DNA from: Bradyrhizobium sp. WSM471
Lineage (GTDB): Bacteria > Pseudomonadota > Alphaproteobacteria > Rhizobiales > Xanthobacteraceae
Reading direction: 5' to 3'
DNA length: 64,000 nucleotides
Assembly: GCF_000244915.1 (NCBI RefSeq)
Contig: NZ_CM001442.1
Coordinates: 2,542,001 to 2,606,000 of the forward strand
Shown here: piece by piece, positions 42,104 through 43,764 of the stretch
How positions within the stretch are numbered: the first letter of the stretch is position 1
Layout: every line of letters starts with the position of its first letter
Program-made: the position numbers and the translations under genes
The notes under the pieces: model-generated
What the model was told of the DNA's origin: nothing
The model's input: only the letters and a program-made list of their open reading frames with translations
The model's database searches: none

Positions 42104-42179
42104 CGTCATTGCGAGGAGCGAAGCGACGAAGCAATCCAGAGTCCCTCCGCGGCAAGATTCTGGATTGCTTCGCTGCGCT
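42104..42179. repeat. Left part of a palindromic repeat (family E) split by the IS
   Basis: CGTCATTGCGAGGAGCGAAG...TGGATTGCTTCGCTGCGCT is the left 76 bp of a palindrome whose missing end, CGCAATGACGG, reappears at 43735-43745 on the other side of the insertion. An intact relative is at 53165-53227, ending GCTGCGCTCGCAATGACG. Confidence 0.9.
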
Positions 42180-42205
42180 AGGAAGAAACGGTTAGGTGTT
42201 TGGCG

Positions 42206-43477
42206 TCAGGCTGCCTCCGCCGTGGGCTGGAGTTGGACAGTGAAGCCGAGCTTCTTGAGGCGCGCGACGAGGCGGTTTGCTTGGACCTCCATGGGCCGGC
42301 GATCGAAGTAGGCGGCACCGAGATCGCGGTGCTCGGTGCCGTCTTTGAGTATGTGGTAGATAGCGGTGAGGATCGAAGCGGCGACAGCACAGATGGCTTT
42401 TTGCGGCCCGCGCTTGGCCTGCAATCGGAAGAACTGAGTTCGGTAATAGCTGTTTTTGCTACGCTTGGCGGCCCAAGCACATTGGACGAGCATGGTCTTG
42501 AGCCACGGTGCCCCCTTGCGCAGGCGCGAGGATTTGCGCTTGCCGGCGCTCTCGTTTTGCCCGGGGCACAGGCCGGTCCAGGCGACGAGATGGCCAGCAG
42601 TCCGGAAGCGGCTCATGTCAGCGCCGATCTCGGACAAAATTGCCGGCGCTGCGACCGCGCTGACGCCGGGGACCGTGGTCAGCAACCCGATCAGGTGGCG
42701 AAAGGGGATCTTGCGACCGTCCGCCTCCGCTTCCATACGTTCGATCCGCTCGGCGATTTCGGCATCAAGCCGGCGAATCGTCTCATCCAGAACATCCCAT
42801 TGCTGCAGATGAAGCGCGAGTAGAAAGCGATGGTGATCCGTCAGGCGGCCGTGCAACGCATCGTAAAGCTCCTTCGGCGACGCCTTGATCTGCTTGCCGG
42901 CAAGCTCGGCCAGCTTGTTCGGCTGCCGCTCGCCGTTGATCATCGCCTGGATGATCCGCCGGCCGCTCGCGCCCATGATGTCGGAGATGACCGAGCCGAG
43001 CTTGATGTTGGCTTCTGCCAGCGTCTTGTCGATCCGCTGAACGTGCCGCGTCTGTTCGCGCACCAGTTGCTTGCGTGTTCGCGTCAGGGCACGCAGCTCC
43101 TGCACCCGCTCTTCCGGAATGAAGCTGCCCTTGATCAGCCCGCAGGCCAACAGGTCGGCGATCCACATCGCATCGTTCATGTCGGTCTTGCGTCCCGGAA
43201 CATTCTTGATGTGCGCCGCATTGGCGACGATCAGTTCAAAAGCGCCTTCGCCCAGAATCCGGAACACCGGCATCCAGTAGACGCCCGTCGCCTCCATCGC
43301 CACATGCGTGCACCGGCTTTCCTCCAGCCATCGTCGCAGCTCTGCAAGCTGCTCAGTCGTGGCCGCAAAGGTCCGGCACTCTCGCTGCGCCTTCCCCTCG
43401 ACCATGATCCGCAGGCAGGCCACAACTGTGTCCTTATGCACATCCAGGCCCGCCACCCGCTCGTACAGAATATCCAT
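42206..43477 (-). CDS. IS110 family transposase
   Basis: A 423-residue recombinase. The N-terminal RuvC-like DEDD set is complete: D12 (GLDVHKD), E62 (MEATG), D99 and D102 (KTDMNDA). A helical linker follows (about 120-270). The C-terminal Tnp domain contains PGVSAVAAPAILSEIG and the serine motif CPGQNESAGKRKSSRLRKG, where the nucleophilic serine of IS110 enzymes is expected. I chose ATG 43477 because GAGGAGAGGAGC precedes it and the frame upstream runs into the non-coding left end. Nothing looks broken, so it may be active. Confidence 0.95.
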   Translation of the reverse strand: MDILYERVAGLDVHKDTVVACLRIMVEGKAQRECRTFAATTEQLAELRRWLEESRCTHVAMEATGVYWMPVFRILGEGAFELIVANAAHIKNVPGRKTDMNDAMWIADLLACGLIKGSFIPEERVQELRALTRTRKQLVREQTRHVQRIDKTLAEANIKLGSVISDIMGASGRRIIQAMINGERQPNKLAELAGKQIKASPKELYDALHGRLTDHHRFLLALHLQQWDVLDETIRRLDAEIAERIERMEAEADGRKIPFRHLIGLLTTVPGVSAVAAPAILSEIGADMSRFRTAGHLVAWTGLCPGQNESAGKRKSSRLRKGAPWLKTMLVQCAWAAKRSKNSYYRTQFFRLQAKRGPQKAICAVAASILTAIYHILKDGTEHRDLGAAYFDRRPMEVQANRLVARLKKLGFTVQLQPTAEAA

Positions 43478-43732
43478 GCTCCTCTCCTCAACAGTTCGCG
43501 CCGGCGGCATAGGGCGCCTGTCAAAAAAGAATGCTAGGAAGCGTGCTCTAGGGCCATACTGCCCCTCCGCGCCAGTGTGGGTCATCCAGGCAACCCGGGT
43601 CCAACTCGCAACCGGGCTCTCACGCACCAGTGAGCAATCGACCTCTTTGCCGACGGCACCTCAGTTTACCGCTCTTGCCAACCCGCGAAAAGTTTCATCC
43701 AGCGCGCGTCAGACCCTCAAGACTGGTCCCAA
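43478..43732 (-). ncRNA. Candidate IS110 bridge RNA region (left end)
   Basis: The 255-nt non-coding left end has the place and size expected for a bridge RNA. Read on the minus strand, TTGCGAG (43611-43605) lies in a hairpin loop closed by CCCGG/CCGGG and equals the target bases plus core left of the insertion (ATTGCG-AG). Further on, CTTCCTAG (43541-43534) equals the element's right end plus core. The order, target guide first and donor guide second, matches that known for IS621. I did not find convincing matching partners for the other two guides (right target, right donor), so boundaries and fold remain a hypothesis. Confidence 0.5.
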
Positions 43733-43734
43733 CT

Positions 43735-43745
43735 CGCAATGACGG
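43735..43745. repeat. Right remnant of the split family E repeat
   Basis: CGCAATGACGG is the end of the palindrome begun at 42104; see the entry at 42104-42179. Confidence 0.85.
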
Positions 43746-43764
43746 GGAGAGGCCGTACGGCTCC

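Follow-up and report, generated by a model that had tools for sequence, protein, structure and literature searches.

An IS110-family insertion sequence with a long non-coding left end

The window (the whole stretch of 64,000 nt analysed here) contains an insertion sequence of the IS110 family on the minus strand. Its non-coding DNA comprises 255 bp in the left end (LE) and 26 bp (42180-42205) in the right end (RE). The main features are as follows.

42180..43732, minus: IS110-family insertion sequence, 1,553 bp without the core (three same-ended copies in differing surroundings; intact sites in relatives)
43732 and 42180, minus: element tips, first base of LE and last base of RE
43733..43734: left-end core dinucleotide, AG on minus, CT on plus
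42178..42179: right-end core dinucleotide, AG on minus, CT on plus
42206..43477, minus: transposase, 423 aa (Pfam, NCBIfam and structure matches, motif positions)
43478..43732, minus: left end, the 255-nt non-coding region upstream of the transposase gene (tnp)

The transposase matched PF01548 (DEDD_Tnp_IS110; 4.1e-29) and PF02371 (Transposase_20; 8.1e-23) in Pfam, and NF033542, 'IS110 family RNA-guided transposase', in NCBIfam (8e-87; 291.6 bits against a cut-off of 140). D12, E62, D99, D102 and S310 lie at the positions expected for the DEDD and serine residues, an assignment based on motifs, and the only solved structures with a sequence match were those of IS621 (8wt6, E 2e-11) and ISCro4. 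The protein thus has the DEDD RuvC-like domain and the serine-bearing Transposase_20 domain of the IS110 family.

The genome of the strain (one contig, 7.78 Mb) holds three near-identical copies of the element. All three have the left junction CATTGCGAG|TTGGGACC, the right junction CTTCCT|AGCGCAGCG and the common layout ATTGCG-AG | TTGGGACC ... CGTTTCTTCCT | AG-CGCAGCG, with differing surroundings. Using both flanks fused with one core removed as the query, relatives of the genus aligned across the join, and the uninterrupted site TTGCTTCGCTnCGCTCGCAATGACG was found in 12 out of the 12 relatives examined (best matches first). Because the copies share their ends and the relatives show an uninterrupted site, the element is placed at 42180-43732 with a 2-bp core. 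It is thus inserted at a core dinucleotide in a specific target that is empty in relatives, as expected of the IS110 family.

The element targets one arm of a short palindromic repeat; a CGTC-tagged repeat class has been described from Bradyrhizobium (PMC3733652). All three copies lie at CATTGCGAG followed by CGCAGCG, despite 208 occurrences of CATTGCGAG in the genome (34 of the backwards pattern) and only 35 of TTGCGAGCGCAGCG (none backwards), a preference for which the RNA described below offers no explanation. The same genome also carries a diverged IS110-like transposase in two pieces (L004, G000:C1:1498818-1499971).

Two words in the left end follow the target and the right end of the element

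The left end had been proposed in the initial annotation to encode a bridge RNA, on the grounds that it contains copies of both junction sequences. Both minus-strand words, TTGCGAG (43611-43605) and CTTCCTAG (43541-43534), are present exactly where they had been placed, and the junctions that they match are the same in the three copies. The candidate guides are as follows.

43607..43612, minus: left target guide GTTGCG, in which TTGCG matches the flank (family word counts)
43605..43606, minus: core AG within the left target guide
43603..43604, minus: handshake guide UU of the target loop, identical to LE positions +1 and +2 (family counts at both positions)
43536..43541, minus: left donor guide CTTCCT, matching the end of RE (family word counts)
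43534..43535, minus: core AG within the left donor guide; the following C43533 is identical to the first right-target base
43630..43638, minus: putative position of the right target guide, 5' side of the target loop (weakly supported)

In 5,000 dinucleotide shuffles of LE with the 20-nt tip omitted, TTGCGAG occurred in 7.9%, CTTCCTAG in 0.24% and both in 0.02%. TTGCGAG by itself is weak evidence, and its status as a guide is decided by the relatives.

The relatives were the best 80 of 450 loci, with transposases 48-86% identical, making 81 elements with the window; the nearest among these 80 is L005 (86%), from a Bradyrhizobium metagenome bin. Seventy-three of the 81 elements were aligned and 59 were non-redundant at <90% identity, with an LE boundary in 53, an RE boundary in 56 and a usable right target in 55. 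The eight omitted elements (L006, L019, L029, L040, L041, L051, L069 and L074) had an LE that was cut off or missing, or yielded no anchor resembling ATGAA[AG]C; the guide words are present in at least L029 and L051. LE boundaries were called by a motif model using only element-internal bases, and RE boundaries by the motif [GA]TTTC, GCTTC or a close variant followed by 5 nt and AG.

Flank positions -5 to -1 agreed with the RNA columns before AG in 47, 47, 46, 49 and 49 of 53 elements (15-21 expected; z 8.8-10.5), and RE positions -5 to -1 agreed with the second word in 49, 56, 55, 55 and 56 of 56 (16-32 expected; z 8.0-11.9). Counted per element, the target word matched at 5/5 bases in 37 of 53 and at 4/5 in 11, that is, at least 4/5 in 48 (5/5 in 2.0% of mismatched pairings), while the end word matched at 5/5 in 48 of 56 and at 4/5 in seven, that is, at least 4/5 in 55 (5/5 in 2.7% of mismatched pairings). 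The counts of 53 include L032, L073 and L082, whose LE boundaries were miscalled by the automatic rule; without them the target word matched at 3/5 or better in 50 of 50 elements and at 4/5 or better in 48. In total, 238 of 265 bases matched between flank and left target guide (permutation mean 84.7, maximum 121; 20,000 permutations) and 271 of 280 between the RE end and the left donor guide (mean 117.8, maximum 153). Host flanks do not descend together with the element, so shared ancestry does not account for the target-word result; the end word is element-internal, and its result is therefore partly confounded by descent. The two words thus follow the flank and the element end in relatives, as had been predicted for a left target guide and a left donor guide, and match the target and RE end as the guides of an IS110 bridge RNA do.

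The words also recurred in 12 distant copies, none of which is in the alignment of the covariance model described below (R1): the left word (5 bases plus AG) upstream in nine of the 12 (4.5% in mismatched pairings) and the right word downstream in nine (3.8%). Two of the 12 are copies in L084, whose second copy was in the main word counts. The misses were L121 on both sides, L128 and L131 for the left word, and L088 and L132 for the right word; by eye, the core of L121 does not have the appearance of AG. These 12 came from 16 copies, L089, L092, L094 and L117 being omitted for words that end in AAAAAAC and TAGGAA, not AG. By eye, these four more distant IS110 relatives have the same layout with a different core, with RNA words AAAAAAC and TAGGAA, left flank CTAAAAAAC and right end TAGGAA. 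Further searches of 296 genomes at family, 385 at class and 398 at phylum level, together with a viral scan (4 loci), yielded few additional close elements.

A conserved fold with two internal loops

The predicted fold has the following parts.

43495..43664, minus: predicted bridge RNA body, aligned stretch (57-sequence alignment, covariation, model R1)
43640..43643, minus: target-loop proximal stem, 5' strand GGUC, pairing with GACC at 43598-43601 (99.1% of cells paired)
43613..43629, minus: target-loop distal hairpin UGGUGC...GAGCCCG (97.9% of cells paired)
43511..43596, minus: donor loop, with proximal stem 43590-43596 with 43511-43517 and distal hairpin at about 43543-43572

The alignment used 57 of the 59 non-redundant elements (L018 and L084 were left out). 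Its consensus comprises a closing stem, a target-loop arm and a donor-loop stem, to which the distal donor hairpin was added by hand. Of the cells in its 28 pairs, 89.7% were paired, against 81.7 +/- 0.5 in shuffles and at most 46.8% with slid partners. Changes on both sides occurred in 19 pairs, all five measures lay above all 500 shuffles, and the covariation score exceeded all 500 shuffles and all six slid controls, a comparison in which the fold is favoured over its slid versions because the alignment that yielded it also served for the counts. The donor proximal stem (helix 4) was paired in 94.0% of cells, with both-side changes in six of its seven pairs; the distal donor helices were the weakest (72.4% and 75.8%). 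In the internal loop flanked by GGUC/GACC and UGGUGC...GAGCCCG, the target word occupies the 3' strand (columns 63-70); the end word occupies the 3' strand of the donor loop. LE thus has the conserved fold with target and donor internal loops seen in IS110 bridge RNAs, and the two-loop fold, whose absence would have spoken against the initial annotation, is supported by covariation. The CCCGG/CCGGG hairpin drawn there around the target word was rejected as the conserved fold, since its sequence allows closure in the window and in L005 but not in most aligned rows.

Folded as a single sequence, LE did not outperform shuffles (z 0.40 at 255 nt and 0.08 at 175 nt); the fold emerged from the alignment alone. 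In the covariance search suggested earlier, Rfam gave no family at gathering score in the window, and we therefore built model R1, which finds the three copies and distant relatives; a working covariance model was thus obtained where Rfam had no match in the window. R1 scored 116.5 bits for the window, which is one of its 57 sequences. In the strain's own genome, only the three copies were found at E below 0.01, the next match having an E of 0.028. Distant matches at E 5e-16 to 4e-5 were found in Glutamicibacter, Rhodococcus and Streptomyces (Actinomycetota), Alicyclobacillus, Paenibacillus and Peribacillus (Bacillota), Chlorohelix (Chloroflexota) and a viral contig. Over 32 sources, 24 were matched at E up to 1, including the window, itself with four more weak matches. 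At the same limit R1 gave no match in L090, L091, L093, L096, L122, L126, L133 or L135 and did not find IS621.

No sigma-70-type promoter was found in 43480-43760, an interval distinct from the joined RE-LE circle junction. A -35/-10 pair sought by eye around ATGAAAC was dropped, as its spacing varies between relatives, and the motif is read as part of a subterminal repeat.

A covarying subterminal inverted repeat

Short inverted repeats lie near both ends.

43692..43696, minus: LE copy GAAAC (in ATGAAAC), the reverse complement of the RE copy
42185..42189, minus: RE copy GTTTC, 5 nt before the RE tip

The two copies covary: 54 of 55 elements have exact reverse complements, against a permutation mean of 37.2 and a maximum of 46, a count favoured by the hand-made patterns with which both motifs were sought. 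Variants were GAAGC/GCTTC in eight elements and also GAAAT/ATTTC and GAAAA/TTTTC. Placement is asymmetric: the RE copy lies 5 nt from the RE tip, the LE copy 23-73 nt from the LE core (median 33 nt). The window's repeat extends over exactly 5 bp, with differing bases on either side of it.

At the LE tip of L005, L008, L009, L012-L014, L024, L028, L036 and others there is a short palindrome of varying sequence, lying between the core and the subterminal repeat. The mean stem was 4.4, versus 3.5 in shuffles, and it exceeded the element's own shuffle mean in 39 of 50 elements (p 1.3e-6). The window has no clear tip palindrome (best stem 2).

Candidate handshake and right-side guides

The target-word match had been extended earlier to TTGCGAGTTGG-ACC. 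Its first two T are handshake-like: the RNA bases after AG agreed with LE in 47 of 53 elements at +2 (33.4 expected; z 7.2) and in 48 of 53 at +1 (44.5 expected; z 4.2), with apparent independent switches of the pair to TC, TG, CT and CG. Both copies of this word lie inside the element, so the result is partly confounded by descent. The handshake guide of IS621 is described as behaving likewise (PMC11208158). The GGACC part of the extended match is a coincidence, because the RNA conserves GGACC whatever the element's end. A corresponding test for a donor-loop handshake guide gave a weak signal.

A ninth matching base, the C after the left donor guide, had also been pointed out, and it may have a meaning. 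This position is A in 53 of 56 elements; in the three exceptions (window C, L005 G, L027 C) it equals the first base of the element's own right target. The general test against the right target was weak (18 of 56, versus 15.1 +/- 1.2 expected). The window's C43533 and the G of its 86% relative L005 thus each equal the first base of their own right target (C and G).

The 5' strand of the target loop contains a complement of the right target, with z 6.3 at the best offset, which was picked after a scan of 120 offsets; the best unrelated place among these gave z 2.3. At the position first tried, permutation p was 5e-5 to 2e-4 across ten score variants. The signal fell to z 2.9 when bases were shuffled within each site and is weak per element. 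The window's own right target guide fits just 3 of 6 bases, yet all three copies use the CGCAGCG arm. Three Sphingobium copies (L009-L011) have the common left target AAAGTAG and differing right targets, suggesting that the right side is loosely read. For a right donor guide there was no consistent family signal among the non-redundant elements, in which the right donor varies little, and a by-eye candidate in the window (CCCA-C-ACT versus AGTTGGG) was accordingly dropped.

Guide order probably differs from that of known systems

In several respects the element resembles IS621 (PMC11208160, PMC11208158). As described there, the ncRNA lies in the end upstream of the transposase and has two internal loops, target then donor, with the core included in the guides; the 5' strand of the target loop ends in CU (here in the consensus, not in every element), the 3' strand ends in AG plus handshake bases, and the recombinase is of the DEDD plus serine type. 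The difference lies in the order of the guides. In an IS621 control oriented identically, with RNA and tnp on plus (the copy carries a partial tandem LE duplication), the 5' strand (ATCGGGCCT) contains the LE-side target ATCAGGC-CT, the right target is found in the 3' strand and the sense core is CT. This is the opposite of the order in the window element, whose LE-side target is in the 3' strand with AG. The guide order anticipated earlier therefore stands in part: the target loop precedes the donor loop, whereas the left guides are on the 3' sides, unlike in IS621. The transposase is also longer (423 aa, versus 326 aa in IS621), and the subterminal repeat is 5 bp, versus the 2-3 bp reported for IS110.

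It would be natural to suspect an error of orientation behind this reversal, given that the target loop comes before the donor loop just as in IS621 and that both left guides exist. We regard such an error as very improbable, since IS621 in the same frame has its left target in the 5' guide with a sense core of CT, while here the left target is in the target-loop 3' strand (columns 63-70) with a sense core of AG and the right-target signal is 5' of it.

Taking the reversal as genuine, the element shares its guide polarity with the IS1111 group. In the IS1111 seekRNAs described (ISEc11, ISPa11, ISKpn4; PMC11187229), the top-strand match is 5' of the bottom-strand match, as holds here at the family level, the right-target side being weak; a subterminal inverted repeat is likewise present. 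However, the RNA region of IS1111 elements is usually downstream of tnp and here is upstream; their repeats are 7-17 bp and here 5 bp and asymmetric; and their transposases are 330-350 aa and here 423 aa (PMC11187229). ISEc21, of the IS110 type, also has an upstream RNA region, but its top-strand match is 3' of the bottom-strand match and here it is 5' (PMC11187229). Exceptions in location are noted in the same source, such as ISMtsp17, an IS1111 relative with an upstream RNA region. In the portions of open-access PMC text available, we found no statement of an upstream RNA combined with the IS1111 guide order, which may nevertheless be in print.

The left guides are placed alike in relatives in Actinomycetota, Bacillota and Chloroflexota. 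One of them, an element of the ISArsp3 family named in a plasmid record (L127; Actinomycetota), has the left words at the same places, an R1 match at E 1.6e-8 and a transposase 41.6% identical to that of the window, and differs in its RE motif (ATTTTC) and left target word (GTGAG).

As read from the sequences, the whole guide layout is inverted relative to the element when compared with IS621, and the reversed layout is probably real and general for the subgroup. Since the IS621 control shows the opposite order, the element appears to face the other way around a seemingly identical RNA-DNA geometry. We consider it likely that a large, phylum-crossing subgroup of long-transposase IS110 elements represents a third bridge-RNA architecture, with an upstream RNA gene, IS1111 guide polarity and an asymmetric covarying subterminal repeat. 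Guide order would then be independent of where the RNA gene lies, and the true family invariant would be the core-strand geometry (a 5' guide ending in CU and a 3' guide ending in AG plus handshake), around which the element could face either way. This layout breaks the reported pairing of RNA location with guide order, in which upstream went with one order and downstream with the other among tested elements, and suggests a simpler geometric rule. As bridge RNAs are programmable, strands need to be assigned to target sides before elements outside the IS621 group are used.

A probable bridge RNA and its proposed action

The boundaries of the element, the word-for-word covariation, the conserved fold and the DEDD/serine protein family were all observed here. 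They support the bridge-RNA reading of the initial annotation, and it is highly probable that the left end encodes an IS110-type bridge RNA. The words might instead be DNA repeats, protein-bound copies of target and end, and word identity at the DNA level cannot by itself distinguish the two; nevertheless, the words keep constant positions within an RNA-like fold that shows compensatory changes, in a family described as using such RNAs (PMC11208160, PMC11187229), which leaves this alternative very little probability. Chance matches in a GC-rich end, which TTGCGAG alone might suggest at 7.9% of shuffles, are refuted by the family-wide tests against permuted pairings and are practically out of the question.

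The action of the putative bridge RNA can be outlined by analogy with IS621 and ISEc21. Transcription of the RNA would run in the direction of the transposase gene. The first internal loop would read the genomic target, with left target-AG and then two handshake bases on its 3' strand and, on its 5' strand, a less exact complement of the right target. The second loop would read the joined ends of the element, with the final bases of RE and then AG on its 3' strand. Excision by the transposase would yield a circle (RE-AG-LE), which the RNA would hold together with the target for strand exchange at the core.

RE-AG-LE junctions were also seen between tandem copies, in L067 and in L017/L086 (G132:C679); such junctions are what insertion of an element next to its own end, or integration of a dimer, would produce.
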